Shown: one piece after another, positions 6,001 to 35,045 of the stretch
Position numbering within the stretch: position 1 is the stretch's first letter
How the letters are laid out: the number at the start of each line of letters is the position of its first letter
NCBI GenBank assembly: GCA_018668695.1
Contig: JABJBS010000111.1
Coordinates: 1-35,635 of the forward strand
Direction of reading: 5' to 3'
Origin: Deltaproteobacteria bacterium
GTDB lineage: Bacteria > Myxococcota > XYA12-FULL-58-9 > JABJBS01
Length of the DNA: 35,635 nt
Notes under the pieces: model-generated
Told to the model about the DNA's origin: nothing
What the model saw: only the letters and a program-made list of their open reading frames with translations
Database searches by the model: none
Position numbers and translations under genes: made by a program

Positions 6001-6370
6001 GTTTGCACATTCAGACAGATGACGGTGGTAATCAACATATCGCGACCGATTTGAACTTAGGCGGTTCCCTGGGTTTCGTTGCCGGTACCCTGGATGAGTA
6101 CGCGCCAGGAATAACCGTGAGCGCCTCTTGGTCGGGTAATGCCGGTGGTGGGCCAGCTTATGTTGGGTTTTATCCTGCAACGGGTGGGGCGTGTGGTGAG
6201 TGTGCGCCTGAACTCGAGAACCAGCGCGCGATTCCATGGAATACGCTCGGCGGAGATCAGTATACCTTTATCGATGTTACTGAAACTCGATTGGAGCGAG
6301 GGGCCGATTATTGCGCCTGTATGCGGCTCGGGAACTTAGAGTCGTCGGCTTATGTTGGTGAATTGGGCGG
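3..6370 (+). repeat. Tandem ABAB array of ~100-residue two-cysteine modules (about 600 bp per AB pair)
   Basis: Eleven A modules begin near VVTGSIDQ, ALGGFINQ, GLTGNIDQ, ALSGVVDQ, VLTGTVDQ, AFSGNMNQ, FVQGDLDV, SLAGSVDQ, DLSASVNQ, AMIATLNQ and FVAGTLDE, spaced about 195-205 codons apart. A and B share an LY..(N/S)...C.G element, followed about 35-45 residues later by RG..YC. They therefore probably descend from one ancestral module that duplicated and diverged before the pair was amplified. The codons differ between copies, so the duplications are not recent. Confidence 0.85.
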
Positions 6371-8540
6371 CGTTCCGCCTAGGTACCGAGAGACGCTGGT
6401 CGAAGTTGATGGTTCTCTTGCTGCACTTTACGACACCTATGAAGATGAGGACTTTGCTGAATCTTTGAATGCCGCTCGTGGGCATATTGGGTATGCGCTG
6501 GACTATTGGGATGCACGGACTTCGCTGAGTGAAGTTGGCGAATTTGCGGACCGCCAAATTCAATGGGGGCCATCTTTTAGGAGGGCCCAGAAGGCAGTTG
6601 AAGACATGGTGCGCGCACGCTCAGGAGGAGGGCCAGGTAGCCTGAGAGGCATGGAGTCGCGCCTTGGCTCGGTCATGCTTTACGAGGCAAGACTTCGAGC
6701 ATCTCTAAGCCAAGCGGCCTTGGACGCAAGCAGTCCTGGTTGGTGGCTTAGAGCCACAGAAGTTAGCTACTCAACTGCTCAAAACGGTTTCCAGAGTTTG
6801 TATGGATTGGAACGAGCGGATGCTGCGGCCGATGCCTACGATGCCGCTGCTCCCGTTTACGAACAACAGTATCAAGAGGCTAACCAGGTGAGTCGGGCTC
6901 AAGTGGCTGTCGACGCGCAAATGGCGCAGCCTCGTGAAAACCGTCCTAGACTTGAACTGATTCAGGCAATCGATGCCATGATGATTTCAGGCTTGAAGCC
7001 AGAGCTGGAAGCAGCGGTTGAGGTCTCTTTGGCGGGTCGCGAAAAGTTGGAAGCGGTGATTGGTCGCCTTGAGAATATCGACGCATGCCTTGAAGACCTA
7101 GCGGCTTTCCAGCTTAACGATAAGCAGTTCACGCTTTGCTATCTTGATGTGGTGAAGATTGTGGAGGAACTTGAAAGTTTTGAAAGCGCACTGGTGAACA
7201 CGCATACGTGGCGTGCGCTTCTTGGCTACTCTGTTTTTGCACTGCTGGATATCTCACTTTACCACGGCTCGAATCCATTGGTTACCCAGCCGAACATTGA
7301 GGCTGACACTGACGGACAAGAAGCATTTGACAACTTTGAACTCGGACTTTTAGAGCTTCGAAATGGCGACATCGAAACTTCGCTCGACCGCTACACGCGA
7401 AACGACTGTCTGATTGTGAGAATGTTCAATCGCTACTATGCAATCTCTGGCGGCGGGGCGAATTTTGATCACATTGAAGAGGCTGGTTATTGCCCAGATG
7501 CATCGAATGAATGTGTGGTACCGGACACCTGTTCCGAATCGGCCACGTGCATTGACAGAATCGTTGGTTATGAGTGCCTGTGTGATGAGGGCTTTGAACT
7601 GAATAACGTGAATGAATGTGTCGACTTGGATGAGTGTACCTTTGGAATATCGACATGCTCACCGGTGGCCGAGTGTACCAATGAAGTAGGTAGTTTTACA
7701 TGCGAGTGTCCTGAAGGCTTCGGAGGTGAGTTCTGTTCCGAATGTGAGACAGGTTACGCGGGTGTCCTTTGTGACCAGTGTGATATCAACGGGGGCTTTG
7801 TCGAGTTCCCTGTCTTGAGCGGACTTTGCATCGCTGACCCGTGCTCGGGGCAGTCTTGCCTAGGTCTGGATTCGTGCAGCCCTGATTCTACCGGAGTTGT
7901 GACCGAGACGGGTGTATGCTCCGTCGTCGGTCCAGACAGCTATTCCTGCAGCGCGCTAACCACTGCGTGTCTCCCAGGAACGGCTTGTAATGGTTTTGAA
8001 GGGGTTCATGCTGATTGTATGGTGGAGCCATTCTTCTCCGAGTACATTGAGGGGTCCTCTTGGAACAAGGCGCTAGAAATTTACAATCCGAATGAGCAAG
8101 CATTCAATTTAGAACATTGCTGGGTGGAAATATATTCCAATGGCAGCACCGACGTGGGTTACACGGTGGCACTTTCGGATGTAGTGCCGGGCGGCGAAAC
8201 TCAAGTTCTATGTAATGACCGTATGGACGAAAGTGAGCAGGGACGCTGTGACATCTTAGAGAATTCACTCATCTTTAATGGTGATGATGCCGTGGTATTG
8301 ATTTGCGGCGGTGCTGGTGATGCCGAGGCCCGAAGAATTGCAGATGTAATCGGCCAGGTTGGTAATGACCCGGGTTCGAGCTGGGGCAGTGGCAATCTGA
8401 GTACCAAGAATGCAACGCTGCGACGAGATTGCGGTGTGGTTATCGGCGATGATGTGAAAGACGATGTCTTTACGCCGGCAGAGTCGTTTGTCGGAGAAGA
8501 TATAGACGTATTCGACGGGCTTGGTGCCCACTGTGATTAG
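3..8540 (+). CDS. Giant secreted modular protein, 5'-truncated by the window (alternating two-Cys modules, EGF-like, lamin-tail domain)
   Basis: The frame is already open at base 3 and reads a module end (YC..., DGGDSA) before the first ATG at 51, so the gene starts outside the window. About 2845 residues are visible. From base 3 to about 6370, two related ~100-residue modules alternate. Type A reads roughly DQ..AT..V.GSW.GQAG, LY.N..C.G, RG..YC.RL.LG, LGEL. Type B reads ASWSL.H, LY.GS...G..C.GG, ERG..YC, DGG. I count 11 A and 10 complete B modules, each with one spaced cysteine pair, which suggests disulphide-stabilised beta domains. Bases 6370-7480 look helical and charged. Bases 7500-7770 hold EGF-like modules, including a calcium-type DLDEC...GSFTCECPEGF signature. 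Bases 8010-8540 match a lamin-tail domain (FSEYIEGSSWNKALEIYNP, NGDDAVVL, DVIGQVG, FDGLGAHCD). The A and B modules are not a family I can name. The role is inferred to be extracellular, perhaps adhesion; no enzyme motif is visible. Confidence 0.93.
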   Translation, partial: YCVHLETLDGGDSAVAMDLTLPTGNPVVTGSIDQVAGEITIAGTWDGLAAHDAQIEIYKNSDCSGVATFIESLGWNVLQGTEKTYLESATAWLSRASAYCAKLRLGDSVVEIDLGTLNVAEFTAATLDAGNLTALNLLAQFETNHAVEVTQTLYEGSTASNGECVGGTQLGDAYVVISDNSAHAWESKAAMPLKRGGLYCVQFIAGDSGGASASAQYQVPDNITALGGFINQETAVMTINGGFSGIAGGASRIDLHANSGCSGTPIQTTAIVWNSMGAGVFPHLFLPPESGFTRGLNYCARLILGEVSRTVDLGELTFANLSAISFDVANENLPALGATWSLSHATTTRSTLYKGSSAQGTTCAAGDEVSATDHGHSASTSVNFQNQENWQHLERGVSYCLEVEVTDGGGAKTARSVTAPSNTPGLTGNIDQANASISLVGTWTGQAGAASQLELYKNSTCTGESIATSAISYESTVPYGHVFTVGDVGSIERGYSYCARLRFGEVTTQLDLGELVYADFLAADLVLDDVNTPTLAASHQMNHAVEVRQSLHYGAVVLNDRCEGGSQIAEARLTALETATELWSSSAEWPLRRGGTYCMEWSTTDGGGASQAVTYTVPNNITALSGVVDQENATFTISGSWTGQAGGGALLELFANAGCTGASTSSVSSSWDGLSSALLPHIFEPGIDGFQRGIDYCVQLTLGDARQTFELGELEYAHIAGPEFVVADPSSPSLRANWSLSHATTSQTKIFKGSTVAGNLCSGGELLESHEHGHNSAFTRTWNNTVQAQILERGTEYCVEILVTDGGDAQTARGVMAPTNNPVLTGTVDQVTGTISVNGTWAGQAGASSQAELFATADCSGTAIAAASIGYDAQGGFGHTFGPDDVAGLVRGQSYCSRLTVGQQVQDVPLGSLDFVTFASVSLTLANSNTPAVRASYTLNHDSPVLLELYRGAALAGDDTCSGGVLEFAQRTTTGASHDEIFESSEAAALWRGTQYCVQFLSTDSGGARAAAVYVVPAASTAFSGNMNQDEATVLVNGGWNGQAGGNARLSVFQNGTCTGAALSQREILWNELSSAVFDHTFDPGGQGFERGYEYCVQLELGNDVRTISLGELEYGFIDAISFSSANLALPSLDATWSLNHRVASESVLYRDSVSAGHVCSGNSKVEVSRETHDTLNTATKSWLNTDDWQNLARGTPYCLEVKVLDAEAYQTARTFEFPDNDSFVQGDLDVDTATVTLTGFWTGNAGASAMIELFPTNDCSGAALDVSAIPYNQADGYTYVVDPTDLPALVRGLSYCGRLVLGDSTHDLSLGELPFADITSIDLIVSNAATPELQATWELEPNGPTTAKLYAGSSLNGDETACVGGALVVDSTVSVDHADGGTHQWANTEAWHPLERGLEYCSQVETEDGGEATRAALVMLPATGVSLAGSVDQDDALLTLDASWDGNAGAGATVVLYRSANCTQNPVAVESIEWNQSTTWSHTWDQDDHPGIIRGHDYCARLVLGQVVVDYPLGFLVEWAYVDSLVISTEQESVPSIRSSWVLSQDEVTSTKLYRGGVVNGDTCEGGVLIDSQDHNGTARTVLWSNSEDWHLIERGRDYCVQLNVQDTGADEASAVMVLGDASMDLSASVNQDDVSFTVTGVWQGNAGASSNLTLYQSADCTDNPLRVVDIGWDVASGVQEVFTPGNTPGLERGFSYCAKLSLGGAQTVHALGELHYSTIGGLGFSMTDSWGPTLRGQWSLTPMGISSATLYEGGTAENGVCVDGESVLSESYGHLGSVVADWQNTGLLKRGATYCLEVNTQDGGADSASANFSVPANNPAMIATLNQVTATVTVEASWDGMAGAASSVTLYRSSNCASAPAEERVIAWDLAGGDDFDFTEADGSVIRGFDYCVALDIGDVRLTQSVGFLVAFGLFDQVNFNVDDIDAPSLTASWTMSQPTVTTSQLFRNSVANEAGDDCIGPDSELILEETQDHLEAITQDWQNTEQWHNLSRGMDYCLHIQTDDGGNQHIATDLNLGGSLGFVAGTLDEYAPGITVSASWSGNAGGGPAYVGFYPATGGACGECAPELENQRAIPWNTLGGDQYTFIDVTETRLERGADYCACMRLGNLESSAYVGELGGVPPRYRETLVEVDGSLAALYDTYEDEDFAESLNAARGHIGYALDYWDARTSLSEVGEFADRQIQWGPSFRRAQKAVEDMVRARSGGGPGSLRGMESRLGSVMLYEARLRASLSQAALDASSPGWWLRATEVSYSTAQNGFQSLYGLERADAAADAYDAAAPVYEQQYQEANQVSRAQVAVDAQMAQPRENRPRLELIQAIDAMMISGLKPELEAAVEVSLAGREKLEAVIGRLENIDACLEDLAAFQLNDKQFTLCYLDVVKIVEELESFESALVNTHTWRALLGYSVFALLDISLYHGSNPLVTQPNIEADTDGQEAFDNFELGLLELRNGDIETSLDRYTRNDCLIVRMFNRYYAISGGGANFDHIEEAGYCPDASNECVVPDTCSESATCIDRIVGYECLCDEGFELNNVNECVDLDECTFGISTCSPVAECTNEVGSFTCECPEGFGGEFCSECETGYAGVLCDQCDINGGFVEFPVLSGLCIADPCSGQSCLGLDSCSPDSTGVVTETGVCSVVGPDSYSCSALTTACLPGTACNGFEGVHADCMVEPFFSEYIEGSSWNKALEIYNPNEQAFNLEHCWVEIYSNGSTDVGYTVALSDVVPGGETQVLCNDRMDESEQGRCDILENSLIFNGDDAVVLICGGAGDAEARRIADVIGQVGNDPGSSWGSGNLSTKNATLRRDCGVVIGDDVKDDVFTPAESFVGEDIDVFDGLGAHCD

Positions 8541-9780: not shown

Positions 9781-12700
9781 CTACGGCGAAGTATCATTTA
9801 TAACGGGGGTAGGGTCACAGCTATCTGTTGTTGCATCCCAGGTCCCCTCAACAACTAGAACACACTGCTCTTGCCTGTTGAAGTCCATATCGAAAATTTT
9901 AATTTCATCGATTACAAAACCGCTTCCAAATCCCCATGTCATGTCATCGGCCATAAAGGAATTCAATATAGGAGCAGCATTTGGATTATTGAGAATCAGT
10001 TGTACGATACCATCAATACTGACTTCTACATTGCCTGTGTTGTCTGCGAGCCGGACCAGTAGGTGGTGCCACTGAGTCCCGTCGTAACCCGCTCCAAGGT
10101 CAATGTCTCCACAGACCTCCCCTGAACCACTGTTGGCGTAGCACGCTTCCAGGGTTTCCTGATCCACTCCGTTGGCAACCCGAATCCCGCCCCCGCTGGA
10201 CGGGGTGGTGGCTAGAAAATCGAAGAGGGTTCCGTTGTCGGCAATCGTGTCCTGTTTGAACCACACGCCAATGACAAGTTGACTGACTGAACCAATGGCC
10301 GATCTTATCTCATTCACGCGAAGCCAGGAGGTGTCTTGGTCGGCATCCGCGTCGGTCTTGAATTGGGCAGCGCTGCCTAATCCGGCGATGCTGTCGATGT
10401 AATCTATACTTTCCGCAGTCGCATTAAATTCGGGGGCGGAGCGTCCGGTGTTTTCGGCGCTACCTTCAAACTTGTAACTCATTAAAGGTTCGGAATGGCA
10501 ATCAGTAAAACAGCCATCGAGATTATCGTCGTTGCCATCATCACAATCTTCGTTTCCTTCGAGTATACCATCGCCACAAACAGCGAAACTACAGTCGTTC
10601 GGGCAATCGTTGTAGTTGTTCTCGTCACCATCATCGCATTCTTCGGAGGCATCGACGATTCCGTCCGTACATTTTGGCAGTCGACAGTCTGTTCGGCAGG
10701 TATCAGGAGTATCTGCGTTGGCGTTGCCGGTATCGCATTCTTCGAAAAGTGGACTTAGAGTTTCAGAGATATCTGTTCTAACAATGTCGTCACCACAGGC
10801 AGCCGGAGCACAGGTGTCCGTACAAGCATCGGTAGCAATCGTGTTCCCATCATCACAGGTTTCGTTGCTGTCGACGACGTTGTCACCGCAGTGGGCAACC
10901 TGGCAATTATTGCGACAACTGTCCGCGCTTGTGTCAGAGTTATCGTCGCCATCGTCGCATGCCTCGATGCCCGTTTGAATGAGATTGTCACCACACGCGG
11001 CAATGATACAGCTTGATGTACACGCTCCATTGTCTAGATTGAGGGAGTTTCCTTGATTGTCTGTTCCAATGTCGCATGTCTCTGCTCCCTCGACGATGCC
11101 GTCTCCGCAGATGCCAATCTGACAGTCGTTAGGGCAGTTGTCGTCATTTTCATTGTTTCCGTCATCGCAATCCTCTCCGGTATCCACGACGCCATCACCG
11201 CAAGCTGCAAGAACGCATGTGTTTCGACAGGTGTTGGGTAGAGAGTCCGAGTTGTTAATGCCATCATCACATTCTTCATATCCGTTACTGCCAGGTGTAA
11301 CATCGGTTCGTACAAAGCCATCTCCACAAGTCGCCGGTACACATTGCTCAGTGCAGCTGCCGGTGTTGCTGTTGCCGGGGCCTTCGTCACAGCCTTCTTG
11401 GCCCGCCCAGGTGAAACCATCACCACAGGTTGCTACTTCACAATTTTCAGTACACTCAGCAGTGTCGTTATTTGCAGCAGCGTTGTCGCAACTCTCGGGG
11501 CCTGTCCTGACACCATCGCCGCAGTTTGCGGATGCCGGATTCGTGCAGTCATTCGGGCAACCATCTTTATTCTCTAAGTTTCCGTCGTCACAGAATTCGT
11601 AGCCGGTTTCTCCCGGCGCAGCGTCGAGTCGGACGATATTGTCGCCGCAGGTGGCAACGAGACAGCCATTGGTACATGCGTCGTTTGAATTTGTATTTCC
11701 ATCGTCACATGCTTCGAAGGCAGGGTTCGTGATGTCTAAGATGTCTCCGCGCCATATGCCATCGCCGCAAACGGAGAGCGCGCAACTGTTGGTGCATGCG
11801 TCGAAATTATCATCGTTGTTGTCGTCACACGCTTCACCTGCGGTCTGAATGCCGTTGCCACAAGCTGTGAACGTGCAGTTGGTATCACAATCATCTCCGT
11901 CGGTAGCATTGCCGTCATCACACTCTTCAAAACCCTCTCTGATATTGTTGGAGCAAACGGCAGCATCAGGGTCGCTGCAATCTGATGGGCATGTTTCGGC
12001 ATCAAAGCCGAGCGCGGTTGGGTCACAAAACTCAATGTCGTCCAACACACCATCACCGCAGGCGGGTAGGCTACAGTCGGTTCGGCAAGCATCAGCCAAG
12101 GTGTTGGAGTTGTTTTCACCATCGTCGCAGGCTTCAGATCCAGCTTGGATACCATTGCCACAGCCGCTCTCGGTACAGTTGCTGTCGCAGCCGTCGCCTT
12201 CTATCGCATTAGCATCATCACAGCTTTCGAACCCTTCGGCTTCTCCATCTCCGCAGATAGCCAGCGCCGCATTGGAACAGTCATCGGGACAGGGCTGAGG
12301 ACTATCTAGGTCGAACGGGTCGCAATACTCGTTGCTTGCCTTGACCCCGTCGCCGCAGCTTGCAACTTGGCAGTTACTGCGACAAGCGCTCGGGTCAGTG
12401 CTCGTGTCGGAGTTGTTCAAGCCGTTGTCACAGGTTTCTTCAGCCTGGATAAATCCATCTCCACAACTCGCTGGAATGCATGAGGTGGTGCAGGCGTCGG
12501 TGTTGCTGGTGTTACCGTCATCACACGCTTCTGAGCCGGCTAAGACTAAGCCATCGCCACACACGTTCAAGAGACAAGAGGTAGTGCATTCAGCGTTGTC
12601 ATTGTTGTTTGCGCCAGCATCGCAAGCTTCATTGCCTTCACGTAAGCCGTTCCCGCAAACGGCTTGGCTGGCATCGCTGCAGTCGCTTGGGCAGGTATCG

Positions 12701-15700
12701 CCGTTAAGATTGTTGCCATCATCGCAGAACTCATAACCGGGGTTGCCTGCTTCAATATCACTGCGGACGACACCGTCACCGCATTTGGCGCTGCGGCATG
12801 TATTGGTGCAGCTGTCGTCATTTATAGTGTTTGCATCGTCGCAATTCTCGAAGCCAGCAACGTCTGGATTTAGAATGTCGTTACGAACAAGGCCGTCACC
12901 ACATGCTGCTTGGTTGCAGGTGTTGGTGCAGCCATCGAATGCATTTGTATTACCATCGTCACATGCCTCACCCGCGGTGGTTATACCATTTCCGCAAGCG
13001 GTGACGGTGCAATTGCTATCGCAACCGCTGCCGTCTTCGTTCGTGCCATTGTCGCAGCTTTCGAGTCCTTCAACGATTCCGTTGCCGCAGGTGGCTAGGT
13101 CTGGGTCGCTACAATCGGCGGGGCAGGTGAGCGCAGCCCCAGGGACACCAGGGTCGCAGAATTCGCCCGTATCCACGACGCCATCTCCGCAGCCGGCCGT
13201 TTGGCAGTTGGTGCGGCACCCATCAATATCGCTGTCTGAATTATTTTCGCCATCGTCACATGCCTCGCCGAGCGTGACGATTCCATTGCCGCAAGCTGTT
13301 ACGGTACAGTTGCTGTCGCAGCCGCTTCCGTCGGTGTTGGTGGTACTGTCGCACTCTTCAAATCCCTCGGGAACACCATTGCCGCATACGGATGTGGCCG
13401 GGTTGGTGCAGTCGAGCGGACACGGCTGGGGGCTGTTGGCGTCGAGTGGGTCACAGAACTCGGAAGTATCGGTGACACCGTCGGAACAATGGGCAGTTTG
13501 ACAGTTGGTTCTGCAGGCGGTTGGGCTTGTGCTCGTCGCGCTATTGCTCAAGCCGTCATCACATTGCTCACCAACTTGGATAAAGCCATCTCCGCAAGCG
13601 GCAGTCACACAGGTATTGGTACATCCATCGGTATTGATGTTGTTACCGTCATCGCAACCTTCGTTGCCGAGCCAATGGAGACCGTCACCGCATGTCGCCG
13701 CATTGCAGCTTAGAGTACACGAACCAGTGTCGCTGTTGGCAATACCGTTATCACATGCTTCGTTGCCTTCTCGAATGCCGTCACCACAAACTGCCGCCGT
13801 TGGATCACTGCAGTCTGATGGACAGGCGTCACCATTGATTGAATTACCGTCATCACAGTATTCGTAACCGGGTGTACCTGCCTCGAGATCTTCGCGGACA
13901 ATTCCGTCGCCGCAGATTGCTAACGCGCAGCTGTTGGTGCACGCGTTTGTATCAATGCTGTCACCGTCATCGCATCCCTCAAAGCCTCCTGCCTCTGGGT
14001 CATTGATATCTGAGCGCCATATTCCATCACCGCAGCTGGCCGCTACGCAACTATTGGTGCAGCTGTCATAGTCGTCGTCGTTGCCATCGTCGCAAGCTTC
14101 CGACCCTGTGGTGATGCCGTTTCCACAACCCGTTATGGTACAGTTGCTATCGCAGCCGCTGCCATCTGTATTGGCGCCGTCATCGCAGGTTTCAAAACCT
14201 TCAACAGTACCATTGCCACAGGCTGAGAGGGCAGGGTTTGAGCAGTCTTGTGGGCAATCGGGGTTCTGTGGGTCGTCGCAATATTCACCCGTATCCAGGA
14301 TGCCGTCCCCGCAAGCTGCGGCTTGGCAGTTGATTCGGCAAGCATCGATTTCGGAGTCGCTGTTCAGAGATCCGTTGTCGCAACTTTCGCCCTCAGTCAC
14401 AACGCCGTTGCCGCATGCGGTGATGCTGCAGTTGTTATCGCATCCATCTGCATTGGTATTGTTTTGGTCGTCGCATTCTTCAAACCCTTGGACGATACCA
14501 TCGCCGCAGTTTGCTGTGGCAGGATTCGTGCAGTCAGATGGACAAGGGCTGGCACTTGCTGGATCGAGAGGGTCACAAAATTCCGATGTATCGGTAACAC
14601 CGTCTCCGCAAGAAGGCCTTAGGCAACTCATACGGCAGCCGTCTGGATCTGTCGTGCTATTAGAGTTACCGGTCCCCAGGTCGCAGGCTTCGCCACTTTG
14701 CAACCAGCCATCACCGCATGTTGCCTGAGTGCAGATATTTGTACAGGTACCAGTATTCGCGTTCGCGGCTCCGTTGTCGCATTGTTCTCGTTCGCCCCAA
14801 ACAAGACCATCGCCGCAAACCGCGAGTAAGCATTGTGTGGTGCAACCACCGGTATCGCTGTTGTTTTCACCTAAATCACAGGCCTCATTTCCTGTGCGAA
14901 TGCCATCGCCGCAAACTGAACCAGCCGGGTCAGAGCAGTCGAAAGGACAGGCGTCACCGCTTAGGTTATTCCCGTCGTCACAGTGTTCATACCCAGGGCT
15001 TGTTTCATCGAGGTCGGTACGAACGATGTTGTCACCGCACCGAGCGACCTGACAGGTGTTGGTGCAAGCGTCCGTCGTGATTGCATTGGCATCATCGCAG
15101 CTTTCGAAATCTGGGCTTGATGGGTCAAGGATATCTGAGCGCCAAAAACCATCGCCACAGGTTGCGGGTTCACAGGTATTGAGACAGCTGTCGTAGTTGT
15201 CCTGATTTGCGTCGTCGCAGGTTTCCCCACCGGTCACGATTCCGTTACCGCATGCGGTTTCTGTACAGTTAGAATCACAGCCGTCGCCATCGATACCATT
15301 CGCATCGTCACATTCTTCAAAACCCTCGGTTTGCCCATTGCCGCATAGAGCATCATCAGGGTTTGAGCAGTCGGTGGGGCAGGTGTTGGCCGCTACGCCG
15401 GGTGCGTCTGGGTCGCAGTATTCATTTGAGTCGACGACACCATCACCGCACGAATACGAGTTACAGTCTGTTCGGCAAGCATCTACTTCGTCATCTGAAT
15501 TAAGCGGGCCATCATCACAAGACTCGTCGGTGCTGATGATACCGTTTCCACATGCCGTTTCGCTGCAGTTGGTATCGCACCCATCACCATTGATGTCGTT
15601 GCCATCGTCACATAACTCAAACGCTTCTCTTACACCGTTGCCGCATTCGGCGAGAGCAGGGTTGCTGCAATCTTCTGGGCAGTCCTGGTCGCTGTTTGGA

Positions 15701-18700
15701 TCTTCGGGGTCACAGAATTCGCCATCTGCAACAACCGCGTCACCGCAATAAGCTATTCTGCAAGTTGTTCGGCATGCGTCGGCCGCGGTGCTTGTGTTAT
15801 TATTTTGTGGACCGAGGTCACATTCCTCGTCGCCCTGGACAAATCCGTCACCGCAAGTTGGTAGGCGGCAGGCTGTGGTGCAAGGCCCGGCATTGTTATT
15901 GCTATTGCCATCGTCACACTGTTCGATGCCCGCATGAACAAGACCATCACCGCAAGTATTGAACACGCATGTTGTCGTACAAGTTCCGTTGTCGTTATTG
16001 GCACCGGCAAAATCACAGGCTTCATTGCCTTCAACGACACCGTCACCGCAAAGAGATCCGTCTGGATCCGTGCAGTCAGCAGGGCACCCATCACCGCCGT
16101 TGGTGTTGCCGTCATCGCAATGCTCATAGCCCATAAGACCCGCAGGGATGTCCGTGCGTGTGACACCGTCGCCGCATCTTGCGACCAAGCAGTCGTTTGT
16201 ACAGGCATCGGTATTGTCACTGTTGGCATCGTCACATCCTTCAAAGCCCGGCTCCTCTGGGTTTAGGATGTCGGCTCTCCAAAAGCCATCGCCGCAAGCT
16301 GCGGCTACACAGTTTTGGGTACACGCGTCGTAGTTGTCAGAATTTGCATCATCACAAGATTCTCCAGCCGTGACGATGCCATTACCACAAGCGGTTAGGG
16401 TGCAGTTATTGTCGCAACCATCTCCATTCGCGGTGTTGGCATCATCGCACTCTTCAAAACCTTCCACGCTACCGTTGCCGCAGGTAGCAGCCTCTGGATT
16501 AGAGCAGTCACTGGGGCAAGGCGTTAGGTCGTTGGAGGCAGCTGAGTCGCAGAACTCGTTGCTATCTTTCACGCCATCACCGCATGACGGAGTAGAGCAA
16601 TCCGTACGGCATGCATCAGGTAAGGTGTCTGAGTTTAGGTCGGCGTTGTCGCAGAACTCTCCGAAAGTTACGAGTCCGTTTCCACAGCCCGTAGGCTGAC
16701 AGTTCGAATCACAGCCGTCGGCATCGGTTAGATTACCGTCATCGCATGTTTCATAGCCGGTTGTTTGGCCGTCTCCGCACACTGAGTTGGCGGCGTTGGT
16801 GCAGTCGCTTGGGCATTCAGGGTCTGCGCCCGGAGCGCTTGCATCACAGTATTCACTGCTGTCTCTGACGCCATCCCCGCAGTAGGACAGTCGGCAATCA
16901 AGTCGGCATGCACTTGGGCTGTTGCTGAGATTCGTGTTGGCTGCGCCTTCGTCGCACTCTTCGAGCCCCTGAAGAAAACCGTCTCCGCAACTTGCGACAT
17001 TGCAGTAGGTGGTGCAGCTGTCGTTATTGTTGGTGTTTGCATCGTCGCATTGCTCAAAGGCTGTCCAGATGAGGCCGTCACCGCACTGGGCAACTTGGCA
17101 GCTGGCGAGGCAGCCGCTGTTGTCGGAGTTGAGTATTCCTTCGTCGCATCCCTCATTACCTTCTCGAATACCATTGCCACAGTTGGCGGCGGTAGGGTTT
17201 GAACAGTCAAAGGGACAAGTGTCTCCATTGACGTTGTTTCCATCGTCACAGTGTTCAAAGAGGGGTGATTCCAAAGGAACGTCGGCGCGTATGACACCAT
17301 CTCCGCATCGAGCGAAGGTGCAGGCGTTGGTGCATCCGTCGTTGTTGATGTTGTTACCATCGTCGCAGGATTCATAACCAAGTACTCCGGGGTCAAGAAT
17401 GTCGGACCGGGGGATACCGTCTCCGCAGCTGGCGACGACACAGGCGTTGGTACATGCATCAAAGTTGTTGCTGTTGGCGTCGTCACACCCTTCACCATCC
17501 GTGACAATCCCATTTTGACAACCAGTGACGGTACAGTTCACGTCGCAGCCGTCTCCATTGCTGAAGTTTGCGTCGTCGCATTCTTCAAAGCCGGTCGTCT
17601 CGCCATCACCGCAAAGGGATTCGTCCGGGTTAGAGCAATCTTGTGGGCAGGTGTCTTCCGAGCCAGATACCTCTGGGTCACAAAACTCATCGTCATCTTG
17701 GACGCCATCGCCGCAGGAGGGTAACTCACAAGTGGTTCTGCAAGCGCCGCTGTTTTCGTCCGAGTTGAGAGGACCGTCATCACAGAATTCGCCGAAGGTA
17801 ATGACACCGTTGCCGCAGCCTGTTTCGGTGCAATTGCTATCACAACCATCAGCATCTGCGTTGTTTCCATCATCACATGTTTCGAAGCCTTCAACCACAG
17901 TGTCGCCGCAAACAGAGAGTGTGCTGTCGGTGCAATCGCTGGGGCAGGGCAGAGTATTGTCGGGGCTAAGCGGGTCGCAATATTCATTGGATGCGACGAC
18001 AGAATCGCCGCAGTAACTTAAACGACAATTGTTCCGGCAGCTATCAGGACTTGTGCTGGTGTTGTTATTGGCGTTTCCTTGATCACATTCCTCGCCGGGT
18101 TGCATAAAGCCATCGCCACATGTGGCGGGGATACAGCTGTTGGTGCATGTGTCGTTGTTGTTTGCGTTTCCATCATCACAACCTTCAACACCCTCATGCC
18201 TGAGTCCATCGCCGCAGACGTTGAAGCTACAGCTCGAGGTGCATTGCGCACTGTCTGAATTGCTTGCACCGTTGTCGCAAGCTTCATTGCCTTCTCGAAT
18301 GCCATCGCCGCATACGGATTGCCCGGGGTCGGTGCAATCACCGGGGCACGCGTCTCCACTTACGGTGTTACCGTCATCACAGAATTCGTAGCCAAGTTGT
18401 CCTTGAACCTTATCGAGTCTTCGAATGCCGTCGCCGCATTGAGCGGGGAGGCAGGCGAGGGTGCAGCTATCGTCATTGATGGTGTTGCCGTCGTCGCAGC
18501 CTTCATAGCCAGCCGCGGTTGGGTCCAAAATGTCACTTCGCCAAATCCCGTCACCGCAGGTAGCAAGGGCACATGCAGCGGTACAGCTATCAAATGCATC
18601 GAAATTCCCATCGTCGCAGGCTTCGCCCGCGGTGACGATACCATTACCGCAACCAGTGACTGAACAGTTGCTGTCACAGCCCGAGCCATCGGTATTGATT

Positions 18701-21700
18701 GTATTGTCACAGGTTTCGTAACCTTCGGTGATGCCATTACCGCAGACAGCTTGTTCAGGGTCGGTGCAGTCTGAGGGGCAATCCAAGACGCCGCCAATTC
18801 CCGGATCACAGAACTCGGCGATATCCATCACACCATCACCGCAACGCGGGGCAGAGCAGTCACTGCGGCAGGTGTCAGGATTTACATCTGAGTTAAGGCT
18901 TCCTTGGTCACACGTTTCATCTCCGGTGACAACACCGTTGCCGCATGCGGTAACTGAGCAGTTGCTGTCGCAGCCAGAGCCGTCGATGTTGGAGCCGTCG
19001 TCACATTCCTCAAACCCTGAAATAATTCCATCGCCGCACTCTGCGAGAGTAGGGTTGGTGCAGTCGAGCGGACAACCGGTTGCCAATGGGTCATTGGGGT
19101 CGCAAAACTCGTTGTCAGCCTGAACACCATCACCGCAGAAACTTACGCGGCAAGTGGTTCGGCAAGCAGTTGTCAAGGTGGAGGTATTATTGTTGGCCGC
19201 ACCTTCGTCGCATTCCTCATCTGCCTGAATGATCCCGTCACCACAGGTTGGTAAGAGGCAGTTTGTTGTGCAGCTTCCCTGGTCATCGTTTGCATTTCCA
19301 AGGTCACATAGTTCTCGGCCAGTCCATACAAGCCCATCGCCGCACGTATTAATAAGGCACGAGAGGGTGCATTGCCCGTTGTCACTATTTAGTCCACCAA
19401 AGTCACAAACTTCGTTGCCCGTAATAACTCCGTCACCGCAAATAGCTGAGTCGGGGTCGCTGCAGTCGGCTGGGCAACCTGGGGAACCATCGCAAAACTC
19501 AAAGCCTGGATTACCTGGGGTAATATCTGTTCGCAGAATACCGTCGCCGCATTTTGCGACTTTACAGGTGTCGGTGCAGGCGTCTGCATCTTCGCCATTG
19601 GCGTCATCGCATGCTTCATAGAGTCCGTGGTTGGGGTTGAGGATGTCTGCACGGGTTATCCCGTCACCGCAGAAAGCCAGCTTGCAGGTGTCTGTGCACG
19701 AGTCGTCAGCTAGGGTGTTGCCGTCATCACATTGCTCGTAACCTGTCTGTCCCGGAATGAGACCACTTCGCAGGTGCCCATCACCACAGGCCGCGTTTGT
19801 GCAAGTTGATGTGCAAATACCACCATCACTATTATCAGGGCCGTTATCGCATTCCTCGAAACCATCGATGGATGAGTCTCCGCACACTGAGCTGCTGGGG
19901 TCACTGCAATCATTAGGGCAGGTTGCCGGGTTGTCTCCGCCTGGTCCTGGATCACAGAACTCATAACCGTCCTCGCCCAGAGTTAAATCGCTGCGCGTTA
20001 CACCATCACCGCAGCTGGCAACGTTGCAGGAATCGCTACAGGCATCAGTGTTTACGTTATTGGCGTCGTCGCATTCTTCTTCGCCCTGAATCGTTCCATC
20101 TCCGCAAATGGGTAAAGTACAGCCTGTAGAGCAGGTTCCCGAAGCACTGTTGTTTGGTCCCTCATCACATTCTTCGAACCCTTCCATAAACCCATTGCCG
20201 CACACTGAATTGTCGGGGTTGCTGCAGTCATCTGGACACGGAGCGCCATTGGCCAAATCTTGTGGGTCACAATATTCAGCGGCATCTAAAATCCCGTCAC
20301 CGCAATAGGCTTGCTGACAGTTTGTTCGGCAGCCGTCAGGTTCGTTGTCGTTATTACCTGTGCCTAAGTCGCAGGTTTCATCGCCGTCTTGAATGCCATC
20401 ACCGCAGCGGGGGAGAACGCAATTTGTTCGGCAGGTATCAGGTGATGTGTTGGAGTTATTTGTTCCGTCATCGCACTGTTCAATACCCGCCCACGTATAG
20501 CCATCTCCGCAAGCCGCGATTTGGCAGACCGGTGTACAAAAAGCATCAGCTGAGTTCAGTGTGCCGTTATCACAGGTTTCATCGCCCTGGACGATGCCGT
20601 CACCGCAGACAGTATTTGCCGGATTTGTGCAATCTTGCGGACAGGTCCCGTCGTCGAGCGGGGATGCAGGGTCACAATATTCATAGCCAGGATCGGACGG
20701 GGAAGCATCGGCGCGGATAAAGCCGTCACCACATGCAGCGGTACGACAGGTAGATATGCAACTGTCATCGTTGTCGGTATTTGCATCATCACAGGCTTCA
20801 AAAAGTGGACTATTAAAATCGGTAATGTCTGCTCTTGTTATGCCATCACCACACGTAGCCTGTGTGCATTGATTGGTACACGAGTCGAGGTCGTTGTCAT
20901 TACCATCGTCGCAGCTCTCATGGGCAGGGTTATCAGTGTCCCCAACATCCAGTCTCGTAATACCGTCGCCGCAGCGAGCGGTCATGCAGGTATTCGTACA
21001 AGCGTCCCATGGCGTTGTATTACCGTCTTCACATTCCTCGCGTCCTTCGATGATTCCATCACCGCAGACGGCAAGCATGCAATCATTGGGGCAATCATCT
21101 TCGTTATCGAGGTTGGCATCATCGCATTGTTCAATGCCTTCAATGGTCCCATTGCCACAGGTCCCTAAGAGGCAATCAGAAGGGCAGGCATCGTCATCCA
21201 AAGTGTTGCCGTCGTCGCAGTCTTCATTAGAGTCTTGTACGGAGTCACCGCATGTATAGCTCCGGCAGTTACTGCGGCAGCTGTTGGGATCTGTATCTGA
21301 GTTTTCGATACCATCATCGCATGCCTCAAAGTCCGGATGGGTTGTATCGAAAATATCAAGTCGGATAACACCGTCACCACAGGTTGCGGGCGAACAATCT
21401 GTGCGGCAGGCGTCGGTGTTGACGAGGTTACCGTCATCACAAAGTTCACTGCCATCCACGACTCCGTCTCCGCATTGTTGAAAGCGGCAGTCGTTGGGGC
21501 AATCGTCAAAGTTTTCGCTGTTGCCGTCATCGCACTGCTCGCTGCCTGTGATAACGCCGTCACCACAGTTGGAGAATTGGCAGTCATTCGGGCAGAAGTC
21601 GTTGTTGTTTGTGTTGCCATCATCGCATTGTTCGTCGCTATCTTGGATGCCATCGCCACAAATAGGCAGGGAGCAATCGTTTCGGCACGCGTCGGCTGAA

Positions 21701-22491
21701 TCAGCGTTGGCAGCACCTTCATCACAAGCTTCGTAACCAGAATCTTGGGGATTGATGATATCGGAACGAACGATGCCGTCGCCGCAAATCGCCTCATTGC
21801 ATGATCCAGTACATGCATCGGTATTGACTGTATTACCATCATCACAAGCTTCAGACCCTTCATGGGTTCCGTCGCCACAGATTGCAATCAGGCAGTCATT
21901 GGGACAATCGTCGAAGGTGTTGTTATTACCATCATCACATTGCTCATCGCCTTCAATAACGCCGTTGCCACAGAGGCTGAGCCGGCATGCAGAGCAGCCA
22001 TCTCCGTCTATGTCGTTTCCGTCATCACATTCTTCGCCAGTGTCGGCAACGCCATCGCCGCAGCTTGGAAAAGTACAGTTGGTTCGGCAGCTGTCTGGCT
22101 CGGTATCGGAGAGGGAATCATCGCAGTCTTCGCCGCTGTCAACGACTTGGTCACCACACTTTGGCAGGGAGCAGTCTGTACGGCAGGCATCGGGTGTTGT
22201 GTTGGAGTTGGCCGCACCGGCATCGCAAGCTTCAAAACCCTCGGCCCCTGGAGTCGTAATATCGTTACGCTGAAAACCATCTCCGCATGAGGCTGGTTGG
22301 CATGTTGCAAGGCAACCGTCTTGGTTACTTAGGTTTCCGTCGTCGCAGACCTCGCCGGGTTCAACAACATCGTTGCCGCAACTCTCTGTTTGCTCGTAGG
22401 TGTCTTCAGTGGACTCGATAATTGCGGCTTCGCATCCGACCAGCACAAATGCCATCAGAATTACTTGCCAGGTTGAGTGTTGTCCCCGCAT
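9781..22491 (-). CDS. Giant DUF4215 (Myxococcus cysteine-rich repeat) surface lipoprotein with LamG-like C-terminus
   Basis: This is a 4236-residue protein. The N-terminus is a lipoprotein signal with lipobox LVGC (Cys20) followed by Glu, so outer-membrane anchoring is expected. Residues 38-4002 are about 115 consecutive DUF4215/TIGR02232-type repeats by hand count, with consensus CG(D/N)G...(G/N)E.CDDGN...D.C...C. Each is 31-42 residues long with four cysteines, so roughly 460 cysteines in all, plus dense Asp/Asn runs that could bind calcium. Residues 4003-4236 resemble a LamG/concanavalin-like sandwich (YKFEGSAENT near the start, then VIGVWFKQD, QWHHLLVRL, VSIDG, IDEIKIFD). The ATG at 22491 follows a G6 run acting as ribosome-binding site. 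An Hpt gene lies 97 bases upstream on the same strand, and the REC-cyclase gene begins 9 bases after the stop codon. The frame is intact for 12.7 kb, which argues for selection. Function is unknown; a long surface fibre or adhesin is the best inference. Folding should need periplasmic disulphide formation. Confidence 0.96.
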   Translation of the reverse strand: MRGQHSTWQVILMAFVLVGCEAAIIESTEDTYEQTESCGNDVVEPGEVCDDGNLSNQDGCLATCQPASCGDGFQRNDITTPGAEGFEACDAGAANSNTTPDACRTDCSLPKCGDQVVDSGEDCDDSLSDTEPDSCRTNCTFPSCGDGVADTGEECDDGNDIDGDGCSACRLSLCGNGVIEGDEQCDDGNNNTFDDCPNDCLIAICGDGTHEGSEACDDGNTVNTDACTGSCNEAICGDGIVRSDIINPQDSGYEACDEGAANADSADACRNDCSLPICGDGIQDSDEQCDDGNTNNNDFCPNDCQFSNCGDGVITGSEQCDDGNSENFDDCPNDCRFQQCGDGVVDGSELCDDGNLVNTDACRTDCSPATCGDGVIRLDIFDTTHPDFEACDDGIENSDTDPNSCRSNCRSYTCGDSVQDSNEDCDDGNTLDDDACPSDCLLGTCGNGTIEGIEQCDDANLDNEDDCPNDCMLAVCGDGIIEGREECEDGNTTPWDACTNTCMTARCGDGITRLDVGDTDNPAHESCDDGNDNDLDSCTNQCTQATCGDGITRADITDFNSPLFEACDDANTDNDDSCISTCRTAACGDGFIRADASPSDPGYEYCDPASPLDDGTCPQDCTNPANTVCGDGIVQGDETCDNGTLNSADAFCTPVCQIAACGDGYTWAGIEQCDDGTNNSNTSPDTCRTNCVLPRCGDGIQDGDETCDLGTGNNDNEPDGCRTNCQQAYCGDGILDAAEYCDPQDLANGAPCPDDCSNPDNSVCGNGFMEGFEECDEGPNNSASGTCSTGCTLPICGDGTIQGEEECDDANNVNTDACSDSCNVASCGDGVTRSDLTLGEDGYEFCDPGPGGDNPATCPNDCSDPSSSVCGDSSIDGFEECDNGPDNSDGGICTSTCTNAACGDGHLRSGLIPGQTGYEQCDDGNTLADDSCTDTCKLAFCGDGITRADILNPNHGLYEACDDANGEDADACTDTCKVAKCGDGILRTDITPGNPGFEFCDGSPGCPADCSDPDSAICGDGVITGNEVCDFGGLNSDNGQCTLSCLINTCGDGLVWTGRELCDLGNANDDQGSCTTNCLLPTCGDGIIQADEECDEGAANNNTSTLTTACRTTCRVSFCGDGVQADNEFCDPNDPLATGCPLDCTNPTLAECGDGIISGFEECDDGSNIDGSGCDSNCSVTACGNGVVTGDETCDQGSLNSDVNPDTCRSDCSAPRCGDGVMDIAEFCDPGIGGVLDCPSDCTDPEQAVCGNGITEGYETCDNTINTDGSGCDSNCSVTGCGNGIVTAGEACDDGNFDAFDSCTAACALATCGDGIWRSDILDPTAAGYEGCDDGNTINDDSCTLACLPAQCGDGIRRLDKVQGQLGYEFCDDGNTVSGDACPGDCTDPGQSVCGDGIREGNEACDNGASNSDSAQCTSSCSFNVCGDGLRHEGVEGCDDGNANNNDTCTNSCIPATCGDGFMQPGEECDQGNANNNTSTSPDSCRNNCRLSYCGDSVVASNEYCDPLSPDNTLPCPSDCTDSTLSVCGDTVVEGFETCDDGNNADADGCDSNCTETGCGNGVITFGEFCDDGPLNSDENSGACRTTCELPSCGDGVQDDDEFCDPEVSGSEDTCPQDCSNPDESLCGDGETTGFEECDDANFSNGDGCDVNCTVTGCQNGIVTDGEGCDDANSNNFDACTNACVVASCGDGIPRSDILDPGVLGYESCDDGNNINNDGCTNACTFARCGDGVIRADVPLESPLFEHCDDGNNVNGDTCPFDCSNPTAANCGNGIREGNEGCDEGILNSDNSGCLASCQVAQCGDGLIWTAFEQCDDANTNNNDSCTTYCNVASCGDGFLQGLEECDEGAANTNLSNSPSACRLDCRLSYCGDGVRDSSEYCDASAPGADPECPSDCTNAANSVCGDGQTTGYETCDDGNLTDADGCDSNCQPTGCGNGLVTFGEFCDNADLNSDTLPDACRTDCSTPSCGDGVKDSNEFCDSAASNDLTPCPSDCSNPEAATCGNGSVEGFEECDDANTANGDGCDNNCTLTACGNGIVTAGESCDDANSDNYDACTQNCVAAACGDGFWRADILNPEEPGFEGCDDANSDNTDACTNDCLVARCGDGVTRTDIPAGLMGYEHCDDGNTNGGDGCPADCTDPDGSLCGDGVVEGNEACDFAGANNDNGTCTTTCVFNTCGDGLVHAGIEQCDDGNSNNNAGPCTTACRLPTCGDGFVQGDEECDLGPQNNNTSTAADACRTTCRIAYCGDAVVADGEFCDPEDPNSDQDCPEDCSNPALAECGNGVREAFELCDDGNDINGDGCDTNCSETACGNGIISTDESCDDGPLNSDDEVDACRTDCNSYSCGDGVVDSNEYCDPDAPGVAANTCPTDCSNPDDALCGNGQTEGFEECDDANGIDGDGCDSNCTETACGNGIVTGGETCDDANQDNYDSCLNTCEPATCGDGFWRSDILDPSSPDFESCDDANAITTDACTNTCQVARCGDNIVRTDLDETSPGYEHCDDGNNLSGDACPFDCSDPAGSVCGDGIRTGNEACDLGENNSDTGGCTTQCLLAVCGDGLVWGEREQCDNGAANANTGTCTNICTQATCGDGWLQSGEACDLGTGNSNSTTDPDGCRMSCLRPSCGDGVTDTSEFCDPLDPASASPCPSDCTNPATANCGDGIVQGFEECDDQNNTNADGCDNNCSITACGNGVVTEGESCDNGSLNSDSEIDACRINCQAAACGDGILDTGEYCDDPQNPDCPQDCSNPALSACGNGTVEGFETCDDGANTDGSGCDSNCTITGCGNGITTGSEACDDGNDDDYDSCTNSCVAASCGDGIWRSDINDPEAGGFEGCDDGDSIDTNACTNSCALAICGDGIVREDLEAGTPGYEYCDDGNSINGDACPSDCSDPTAAVCGDGIREGNEACDNGIANSDTGSCTLSCNAATCGDGLHWLGNEGCDDGNNINTDGCTNTCVTAACGDGFIQVGEQCDDGLSNSATSTSPTACRTNCQTAHCSDGVTDTSEFCDPLDANSPQPCPLDCTNPATSVCGNGVPEGFEECDSTTNTDGSGCDSNCTVTACGNGIVTLGEACDDGENNSDSDIDGCRTNCQTAGCGDGVVDTGEFCDPGVPGAALTCPADCSDPDLATCGNGIVEGLESCDNGTNEDGSGCDSNCTVTACGNGITTAGEACDDGNTNAFDGCTNTCNQAACGDGLVRNDILNPDVAGFENCDDANTINDDSCTNTCRSAKCGDGVVRSDIEAGNPGYEFCDDGNNLNGDTCPSDCSDASQAVCGNGLREGNEACDAGANNNDNAECTTSCLLNVCGDGLVLAGSEACDDGNTSNTDACTTSCIPASCGDGFIQAEETCDNGLNNSDTSTDPSACRSNCQVASCGDGVKASNEYCDPFDLDSPQPCPDDCSNAALAICGDGEAEGFESCDDANAIEGDGCDSNCTESGCGNGIQAGSEACDDGENNSNTLADACRTDCSLPACGDGVLDDIEFCDPTALGFDAETCPSDCSDPDAAVCSNNIREGFEECDDGNATDGDDCDTNCTFTACGNGIQTAGEACDDNNDDNFDACTNSCALSVCGDGIWRGDILDITNPAFEACDDGNTNSNDACTNGCLVATCGDNIVRLDAAPGETGYEFCDDGNLENKDGCPNDCTNPASANCGDGVRTGPESCDNAAANNDTAECTENCEVATCGDGFTWAGQEGCDEGPGNSNTGSCTEQCVPATCGDGFVRTDVTPGSNGYEECDDGINNSDSLPNTCRNTCVLAACGDGVVDTGEDCDDGNNENDDNCPNDCQIGICGDGIVEGAETCDIGTDNQGNSLNLDNGACTSSCIIAACGDNLIQTGIEACDDGDDNSDTSADSCRNNCQVAHCGDNVVDSNETCDDGNTIATDACTDTCAPAACGDDIVRTDISETLSPLFEECDTGNANADTPDTCRTDCRLPKCTDGIVDASEECDDGDENNYNDCPNDCSFAVCGDGILEGNEDCDDGNDDNLDGCFTDCHSEPLMSYKFEGSAENTGRSAPEFNATAESIDYIDSIAGLGSAAQFKTDADADQDTSWLRVNEIRSAIGSVSQLVIGVWFKQDTIADNGTLFDFLATTPSSGGGIRVANGVDQETLEACYANSGSGEVCGDIDLGAGYDGTQWHHLLVRLADNTGNVEVSIDGIVQLILNNPNAAPILNSFMADDMTWGFGSGFVIDEIKIFDMDFNRQEQCVLVVEGTWDATTDSCDPTPVINDTSP
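12256..19038 (-). repeat. Higher-order repeat: six tandem 11-unit blocks of about 1.13 kb within the DUF4215 array
   Basis: Units 33-98 of the array fall into six consecutive blocks of eleven, each with the same order of unit types. The block starts are at 19038, 17910, 16779, 15645, 14508 and 13386, and the next would-be start is 12255. Block lengths are 1128, 1131, 1134, 1137, 1122 and 1131 bp. In the first block the unit lengths are 31-34-33-31-31-40-42-32-32-36-34 codons. Position 1 reads GFEECDD...DGxGCDSNC, position 6 IWRSDILDP...GYEGCDDGN, position 7 GYEFCDDGN...CPSDC, position 8 REGNEACD, position 9 a Leu/Trp-containing GLxW type, and positions 10-11 end CR..CR.(S/A)Y and EFCDP.... 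Synonymous differences between blocks are many, so these are old duplications. Confidence 0.88.
19039..20202 (-). repeat. Degenerate upstream copy of the 11-unit block
   Basis: Units 22-32 (1164 bp) align to the 11-unit block. Units 27-32 match block positions 6-11 well: TRADILNP then LRTDITPGNPGFEFCD, VITGNEVCD, LVWTGRE, IIQADEECDEG and ADNEFCDP. Units 22-26 match only loosely. Further towards the N-terminus, units 16-21 still show the position 6-11 order, but units 1-15 do not. The order decays away from the centre of the array. Confidence 0.6.
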
Positions 22492-27214: not shown

Positions 27215-27988
27215 TTAAGCAGCTTTCTCGTCACCACTATCGCGCTTACTGGCCTTGAGGTAGGGCTTGAGACTTTCCTCGAGGATACGCGGGTGTTGTT
27301 CGGACTGAATTGAAACAATGGTATCGATGAGGAGCATTTTTGTAACGCGCTCCTCGTTGTTGCGTAGGGTTAACTTGTCGGCGATTGGTAACGCGAACAT
27401 GTTGGCAAGCATCGCACCGTAGAGAGTGGTGAGAAGTGCAACCGCCATAGCCGGACCAATGGTCTTCGGGTCTTCCATATTGGCAAGCATCTGGACCAAG
27501 CCCACAAGCGTTCCAATCATACCCATGGCCGGGCCAACATCGCCGATGGCTTTGAAAATTTTGATGCCACCATCATGCCGGTCCATAGCCTGATACATCT
27601 CCTTGGTAAGTGTGGACTTAATTACTTGTCCATCCACGTTATCCACGAGGTATTCGATTCCTTTTTTAAGAAACGGGTTGGTGACGTTCTCTTCTTCCAG
27701 GGCCAATACGCCTTCTCGGCGAGCCTTGTTGGAGAGGCTTAGGCTAAGCTCGATAAGTTCGTTGGTGTCTGCGCCCTTGAAGAAAAATGCCTGCAGTGCC
27801 ACTTTGATAGCTCCAAGGAACTGTCCAAGGCCGAACTTCATCAGTGCAACAAATATACTTCCGCCGATAACAATGAGCAGTGAGGGCGGGTTAATGAAGA
27901 GGGCAACGCCACCTTCACCTTGCCCAATGGCAAAGCCAACAATCCCAAAAGCGCCCAATAAACCAATAAGCGTTGCCAGATCCGGCAT
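27215..27988 (-). CDS. motA: MotA/PomA flagellar stator (proton/sodium channel) subunit
   Basis: This 257-residue inner-membrane protein forms, with MotB, the ion-driven stator of the flagellar motor. It has four predicted membrane segments. The hallmark blocks GDVGPAMGMIGTLVGLV and IGPAMAVALLTTLYGAMLAN contain the two conserved prolines of helices 3-4. The cytoplasmic motif KARREGVLALEEE contains the Arg/Glu pair that contacts FliG. Overall wording is closer to Vibrio-type PomA than to E. coli MotA, which suggests sodium coupling, but ion choice cannot be decided from this subunit. I choose ATG 27988, with GGAGG six bases upstream, over an in-frame TTG at 28006. No motB follows directly; two motB genes lie about 6-7 kb away, past 33.6 kb. 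The unknown 276-residue gene follows in the same unit. Confidence 0.96.
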   Translation of the reverse strand: MPDLATLIGLLGAFGIVGFAIGQGEGGVALFINPPSLLIVIGGSIFVALMKFGLGQFLGAIKVALQAFFFKGADTNELIELSLSLSNKARREGVLALEEENVTNPFLKKGIEYLVDNVDGQVIKSTLTKEMYQAMDRHDGGIKIFKAIGDVGPAMGMIGTLVGLVQMLANMEDPKTIGPAMAVALLTTLYGAMLANMFALPIADKLTLRNNEERVTKMLLIDTIVSIQSEQHPRILEESLKPYLKASKRDSGDEKAA

Positions 27989-28071
27989 GGCTGACCTCCC
28001 CGTCAAACCGGTACAATACCCTTATAAAAACGGTAGCATGAAGGCTTTGATTCCGCAAACTTCTAAGAAAA

Positions 28072-30665: not shown

Positions 30666-30869
30666 GCATCTTGGCCTCAAACCAACCTGGAACCTCAACG
30701 AATTCGATTCCATTGATCATTCTTCACTCAAAAAGCCTTTCCGAAGCCCAAGGTATGCGCATGTCGCTCGCCAACATACTTAAGATCGCTAGGGTTTCGT
30801 CGATGGTGATCTGAAGGTGAAAAGCGGCGGTGCACCAAGCGGACGCTGCTAATCTTGAGGGATGGGGTT

Positions 30870-34927: not shown

Positions 34928-35018
34928 CGCTATCCTTTGGCGACAGTGTGGTTAAGTTGCCATGGCTTCCCATTACGAGGCAATCCCACATTTAACTATC
35001 GACTATTTGACCAAAGAC

Positions 35019-35045
35019 TAAAGTTAGAATCCAACACGTCGATTC
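35019..35045 (+). promoter_or_regulatory. Probable sigma-28 promoter of the second motB gene
   Basis: TAAAGTTA (35019-35026) matches the sigma-28 -35 box at 7 of 8 positions. After exactly 11 bases comes GTCGATTC (35038-35045), matching GCCGATAA at 5 of 8, including the CGAT core. It lies in the 183-base gap between the divergent motB genes, correctly oriented for the gene at 35111. Confidence 0.6.

Follow-up and report, generated by a model that had tools for sequence, protein, structure and literature searches.

The window analysed here is a stretch of 35,635 nucleotides, positions 1 to 35,635 of contig JABJBS010000111.1 in the genome assembly GCA_018668695.1 of a Deltaproteobacteria bacterium (GTDB lineage Bacteria; Myxococcota; XYA12-FULL-58-9; JABJBS01). 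Its reverse strand carries a gene of 12.7 kb, which is open throughout, with zero internal stops in the translation, and encodes a predicted lipoprotein of 4236 amino acids containing 115 repeat units of the DUF4215 family. Most of the protein is a super-repeat, in which eleven unit types, designated A to K, recur in the same order. The super-repeat comprises six clean blocks of eleven units and one that is degenerate, and at either end it tails off in a partial block, which makes about eight and a half copies in all. The features of the gene, in window coordinates, are listed from the N terminus to the C terminus, after the gene itself.

9781..22491, reverse strand: gene for the 4236-residue predicted lipoprotein with 115 DUF4215 / myxo_disulf_rpt units (open reading frame, translation, PF13948, TIGR02232).
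22432..22491, reverse strand: predicted signal peptide with the lipobox-like VLVGC at residues 16-20 (Cys20), read from the sequence by eye.
20974..22380, reverse strand: units 1-14, an N-terminal array off the 11-unit register (lag values and type assignment).
20203..20973, reverse strand: units 15-21, an incomplete upstream block of types E-K, unit 15 being weakly E (type assignment, block profile).
19039..20202, reverse strand: units 22-32, degenerate block 0 of types A-K, its A-E part eroded (identity, types).
17911..19038, reverse strand: block 1, units 33-43, types A-K, 1128 bp (unit split and identity matrix, as for blocks 2-6).
16780..17910, reverse strand: block 2, units 44-54, 1131 bp.
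15646..16779, reverse strand: block 3, units 55-65, 1134 bp.
14509..15645, reverse strand: block 4, units 66-76, 1137 bp; its D-E-F-G part was modelled.
13387..14508, reverse strand: block 5, units 77-87, 1122 bp.
12256..13386, reverse strand: block 6, units 88-98, 1131 bp.
11329..12255, reverse strand: block 7, partial, units 99-107, types A-I (type assignment, block profile).
10495..11328, reverse strand: units 108-115, a C-terminal array off the 11-unit register (mean rank 6.25 in phase 0; every phase misfits).
9781..10494, reverse strand: non-repetitive C-terminal domain of ~237 residues, without a family match.

The units are typical members of their family by two models. Over the whole protein PF13948 (DUF4215) matches 28 stretches with 823.8 bits against a cut-off of 27, and TIGR02232 (myxo_disulf_rpt) matches 48 stretches with 874.8 bits against a cut-off of 20.8. 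PF13948 is the sole Pfam family in the protein, and TIGR02232 is the sole NCBIfam family at E <= 0.01; TIGR04201, the TraA-type repeat, gave no match to it at that threshold. The C-terminal domain matched nothing in Pfam or NCBIfam at E <= 10 and, when used as a probe for orthologs, had zero matches among 57 relatives.

To describe the register, units were delimited at each first cysteine of a CG[DN]G-type motif, giving units of 31-42 residues and a block of ~377 residues, and all pairs of units were compared. Mean identity among units 33-98 is 41.0% overall, 40.3% at lag 1 and 35.9-44.1% across lags 1-10. It rises to 60.0% at lag 11 and stays high at lags 22 (58.5%) and 33 (58.0%). When the order of the units was shuffled in 5000 permutations, lag 11 fell to 41.0 +/- 1.2% and the top value at any lag was 47.6%. 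For 56 of these 66 units the best-scoring partner is a multiple of 11 units away. The partners of the remaining ten are at lags that amount to 3 or 8, the distances at which type A resembles D and type C resembles K; lags 3 and 8 are genuine but minor secondary peaks. With the count restricted to variable columns, identity is 46.9% at lag 11 and 14-25% at the ten shorter lags. That the peak comes solely from the two long unit types was considered and rejected, as 45.7% remains in these columns without them. A type assignment places the proper type highest for 59 of the 66 core units and within the top two for every one of them.

A higher-order repeat is recognized by an identity peak that stands above all shorter lags and recurs at multiples of its own lag, and lag 11 has this property. 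The preliminary description of the stretch had placed eleven unit types in six tandem blocks of 1122-1137 bp at 12256-19038, and these coordinates and lengths were reproduced exactly. It had also proposed that an identity matrix should show an excess at lag 11 over lags 1-10; the matrix did so (60.0% against at most 44.1% at lags 1-10), and neither a missing nor an equally shared excess was seen. The peak, which recurs at the multiples of 11, supports the proposal that the array grew through the copying of whole 11-unit blocks.

The register is wider than this core. The flanks, units 15-32 and 99-107, fit phase 0 alone. Upstream, units 15-21 match positions 138-368 of the block profile (E 4.5e-75), and units 15-25 have a mean rank of 2.27 in phase 0 against at least 4.7 in the other phases. 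Types F-K of units 22-32 all rank first (block profile, E 8e-88), and this degenerate block is 50-55% identical to blocks 1-7. Downstream, eight of units 99-107 are top-ranked for the expected type and the ninth ranks second (E 5.2e-125). The degenerate copy at 19039-20202 and the partial copy in units 99-107 had both been described before, but the latter ends at 11329 and not at 11280. As a whole the register begins at unit 15 or 16 and ends with unit 107; it takes in about 93 units over roughly 9.6 kb (~20973-11329), so that the extent given earlier holds for the core only.

Judged from its synonymous sites, the duplication of whole blocks is an old event. Blocks are 57-63% identical in protein and 54-63% in DNA, and the most similar pair of units reaches 74% in DNA. 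The proportion of synonymous differences (pS) is 0.77-0.92 across blocks, and that of nonsynonymous differences (pN) is 0.25-0.36, narrowing to 0.25-0.31 if only the six clean blocks are compared. A comparison of nonsynonymous and synonymous rates (dN/dS) between blocks had been suggested; it yields these proportions but no ratio, because dS is saturated and hence not estimable. At positions with the same amino acid in two blocks, the codon is also the same in 44.1% of cases, compared to 42.5% predicted from codon usage. This test has power because it detects a recent block duplication in another DUF4215 array, L149 (66.4% against 44.8%). The block comparison shows no sign of concerted evolution. 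Identity between blocks is unrelated to their separation (rho -0.02) and flat out to lag 55. The block tree is star-shaped, without support for any branch, and its longest branches lead to the two edge blocks.

The unit types have nevertheless kept their identity. In 48 type-diagnostic alignment columns one unit type has a residue of its own that every copy, or every copy save one, retains, whereas shuffled labels give a mean of 0.27 and a maximum of 4 such columns. The super-repeats thus have position-specific conservation, one mark of super-repeats like those of titin and nebulin. According to a manual count, 39 of the 48 columns are in the loops at either end of the unit and not in its DDGN core. 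The common fold does not require these residues, because they vary between types. Since synonymous sites are randomised and the type residues are kept nonetheless, the simplest reading of the sequences is that purifying selection maintains unit-type identity. Such selection had been postulated before, and the synonymous saturation combined with 48 type residues, against 0.3 expected, supports it.

Relatives of the array were sought; the genomes covered include seven other genomes of the same order and none of the same family. In 195 genomes of the same phylum the best match to the block profile covered only a part of it and scored 197 bits, compared to 610-622 bits for the protein's own copies. 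A scan of GTDB contigs found 77 loci at 29-53% identity. The A-K order was tried on 109 other array open reading frames (ORFs) against 30 shuffled orders and had no advantage (mean +2.7 bits). Six of the 109 beat all shuffled orders where ~3.5 were expected, and the five that were inspected unit by unit are non-collinear. So far the 11-unit order is known from the host genome alone.

Multi-unit periods as such are not peculiar to this array. A survey of 62 arrays of at least 14 units found eleven in which one lag of 2 or more is dominant (z >= 5): 11 in the present array (z 16.2), and 9 (z 12.5), 8, 7, 6, 6, 5, 5, 3, 2 and 2 in the others; the arrays were segmented by a single regular expression, the register of which slips in places, so that periods may be missed, and the sample is biased toward arrays resembling the present one. 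Most surveyed arrays are without a dominant long period. Since periods of 2, 3, 5, 6, 7, 8 and 9 units occur in 10 of the 61 other arrays, duplication by several units is an ordinary growth route in the family. DUF4215 arrays had been said to be usually described as simple runs, which the survey does not support, and it had been proposed to look for the same lag in related genomes: ten of the others have a dominant lag of 2-9, two of them in the host genome itself (lag 5 on contig 21, locus L103, and lag 2 on contig 228, L102), and none has 11. A 4165-residue DUF4215 protein from a genome of the same order (L136, G004 contig 29) combines lag 7 in one array with lag 6 in another. A 116-unit array in a metagenome-assembled genome of Candidatus Binatia (L025, JANQEO010000231.1) has a 9-unit period, and its identity decays block by block (59.8, 52.7, 47.5 and 44.5%), reaching background by four blocks. 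Simple runs of near-identical units also exist, as in L048, where lag-1 identity is 84%. The present array stands out by the length of its period, its number of blocks and its flat identity, none of which is matched in the surveyed arrays. As an example of a known organization it is unusually clear and old, and the literature searched contained no prior description of such an organization in bacterial cysteine-rich lipoproteins, nor any paper on DUF4215.

The order of types inside the block has a structure of its own. Type A resembles D, C resembles K and B resembles E, and H, I and E are mutually alike. The best 4+4+3 split of the ring of eleven is [DEFG][HIJK][AB-C], with a mean of 45.7% against 39.4% between types overall, and the score of this phasing was equalled in 7 of 2000 random orders. 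In units 1-21 lag 4 (47.1%) and lag 8 (45.4%) exceed lag 11 (38.3%), and a separate period of four units runs through units 4-15. Because of this phasing and the N-terminal 4-unit period, it is likely but not certain that a 4-unit stage preceded the 11-unit stage.

Some information about the fold came from a profile of the short unit, which matches a single module in human pappalysin-1 (PDB 8a7d_C, residues 866-896, E 4.4e-6) and pappalysin-2 (E 0.0013); searches of the Protein Data Bank with the whole protein or a whole block gave no matches. The unit and the pappalysin-1 module have the cysteine and aspartate pattern CGDGi..gEqCDD.N..ngDgC...C in common. AlphaFold2 modelled the D-E-F-G stretch of block 4 (60 rows) with a predicted local distance difference test score (pLDDT) of 93.3 and scarcely any regular secondary structure. 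Foldseek superimposed one unit onto pappalysin-1 (PAPP-A) with a root mean square deviation of 0.9 Å over 33 residues at 42% identity, a match that is not significant alone (E 0.39). Each unit is probably a small disulfide-knotted module, and its conserved Asp/Asn pattern suggests Ca2+ binding. DUF4215, a large family of unknown function, is thereby linked to a solved module. PAPP-A differs in that a single copy of the module is found within a metalloprotease, and there is no array.

The closest likeness to the arrangement as a whole is found in muscle. The C-zone of the titin A-band contains 11 copies of an 11-domain super-repeat, in which the likeness of equivalent positions is greatest among the middle copies and smallest in the outermost ones (PMC10665226). 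In titin, as in the 4236-residue protein, different modules of one or two families stand in a fixed order of eleven and equivalents are closer to each other than neighbours are. Both have well conserved central repeats, deviant end repeats and recursive duplication of blocks. Titin, however, is built of Ig and FnIII domains of ~100 residues and its super-repeat matches the 43-nm period of the myosin filament, whereas the present protein is a bacterial predicted lipoprotein with cysteine-rich units of 31-42 residues. The number 11 in both is probably a coincidence. Nebulin has a 7-module super-repeat and grew by sevens (PMC1553488). It is similar in that short modules were copied several together, leaving an autocorrelation peak at one lag in the same type of analysis, but its seven-module blocks wind along actin, and its fold and cellular setting are different.

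Among bacterial proteins, the TraA stalk of Myxococcus xanthus (TIGR04201; PMC3325183) has been proposed to be a rigid cysteine-rich stalk on the outer surface and is likewise deltaproteobacterial, although it has nine repeats of another family and a MYXO-CTERM in place of the lipobox. Periscope proteins (PMC9704523) are surface rods of tandem folded modules, comparable to the rod proposed below. Their repeats are near-identical in the coding DNA and vary in number by recombination; the repeats of the present protein are old and diverged, and its blocks have no such near-identity.

The explanation that accounts best for these observations, and which is considered rather more probable than not, sees the protein as a giant rod on the cell surface, anchored by lipid and rich in cysteine, whose nested super-repeat is old and held by selection. 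The DUF4215 module would first have been set out in fours. Two sets of four and one set lacking a unit would then have made the block [DEFG][HIJK][AB-C], whole blocks would have been duplicated in tandem long ago to about eight and a half copies, and purifying selection, not recent homogenization, would since have kept the order, length and type residues of the eleven units. The result would be a disulfide-braced, perhaps Ca2+-stabilized stalk, in which neighbour contacts and exposed surface recur every 11 units (~377 residues) and could present the same contact or docking surface at fixed intervals, as titin and nebulin do. The parts of this explanation differ in strength. The sequences directly establish the register and its extent, the synonymous saturation, the type-specific conservation and the homology of the module, and the nesting is backed by the permutations; the surface rod, the role of Ca2+ and docking at intervals are inferred. 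Nested block duplication long ago followed by selection on unit type is firm and a very long lipid-anchored rod is likely, and it is a tentative suggestion that contacts or docking surfaces return with each set of 11 units. A bacterial molecular ruler, that is, a selected spacing device with one docking or self-association surface per 377 residues of the rod, reached from a 4-unit set through the 11-unit block to tandem copies independently of titin and nebulin, is an unlikely extension.

Several points weigh against the proposed rod. The N-terminal MRGQHSTWQVILMAFVLVGC was set by eye against the lipobox pattern [LVI][ASTVI][GAS]C, and the prediction that the protein is a lipid-anchored lipoprotein, secreted and surface-exposed, rests on that reading. 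AlphaFold2 gave a pLDDT of only 37 for a whole 377-residue block from six sequences, and the model was discarded. In the part of the PAPP-A literature consulted, Ca2+ is described for the LNR modules and the catalytic domain, but not for the DUF4215-like module. An ortholog was sought and none was found, so the evidence for type conservation comes from blocks within one gene. Finally, the periods of other arrays indicate that 11 is no family constant and deny it general meaning. The earlier suggestion that eleven units may be the structural or binding unit is not supported, as the period varies between arrays and even within one protein, but the flat identity and the type residues are compatible with such a role in this protein. 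The term 'fibre' used in that suggestion is not supported either, as the protein is a single predicted lipoprotein chain with no sign of polymerization.

Of the other explanations, the one closest to the proposed rod retains the structure but dispenses with any period-matched outside partner: types would persist as an interface code and through dissimilarity of neighbours that guards against misfolding. The concentration of 39 of the 48 diagnostic columns in the end loops suits this idea, as do the mere 40% identity of neighbouring units and the risk of misfolding attributed to near-identical neighbours in a review of periscope proteins (PMC9704523). It is possible but somewhat doubtful, because neighbours are not specially dissimilar (40.3% at lag 1 against a background of 41.0%) and near-identical DUF4215 runs such as L048 exist and persist. 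The period could also be functionless, a chance unit of duplication preserved as frozen history, in which each unit is constrained by its fold and slowly evolving sites retain the ancestral type. The many period lengths of related arrays make 11 look arbitrary, no ortholog with a conserved period was found, and site rates are very uneven (gamma shape 0.32). This is nonetheless unlikely, since the 48 diagnostic sites are free between types and yet fixed in 6 or 7 blocks while synonymous sites were randomised, and identity is flat to lag 55, in contrast to its decay in the 9-unit array L025.

The preliminary description had compared the array to satellite DNA, and ongoing homogenization by unequal crossing over or gene conversion would account for the equal length of the tandem blocks and for edges that are degenerate, as the flanks of satellite arrays are. 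Satellites are recent and homogenized in their DNA, however, whereas these blocks are 54-63% identical with synonymous sites at chance, even the closest unit pair is just 74% identical, and Tandem Repeats Finder reported zero arrays here (longest period tested, 500 bp). The comparison has been abandoned and this origin is very improbable. A false tandem array created by mis-joined contigs might be suspected in a genome fragmented into 424 contigs, but the chance of it is negligible: collapse or false expansion needs near-identical DNA, some 40% of bases differ between blocks, and the frame stays open over its 12.7 kb.

The array is of wider significance because it separates homogenization from selection, two causes that are usually confounded in repeat proteins. 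Nested super-repeats of the titin and nebulin kind arise in bacteria too, and here their order outlived the synonymous signal. Together with the related arrays of periods 2-9, it provides a comparative set for deciding whether super-repeat length comes from structure, partners or accident.

The neighbouring genes, which encode response regulators, a methyl-accepting chemotaxis protein, MotA/MotB-like proteins, WD40 and pentapeptide proteins and an AMP-binding enzyme, do not suggest an operon partner. A MotA-like gene is at 27215-28006, and a head-to-head MotB-like pair occupies 33626-34927 (reverse strand) and 34937-35635 (forward strand), the first with an OmpA domain. Between them, at 30855-33605 on the forward strand, is a gene for a 916-residue WD40-repeat protein with 16 WD40 stretches and an apparent signal peptide. 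The converging neighbour at 3-8540 on the forward strand encodes at least 2829 residues with an EGF and LTD-like C terminus. It is itself a nested repeat of ~20 units of 97-106 residues, the identity of which alternates with the lag and is 24.6% at lag 1, 33.1% at lag 2, 37.3% at lag 4 and 34.7% at lag 8.

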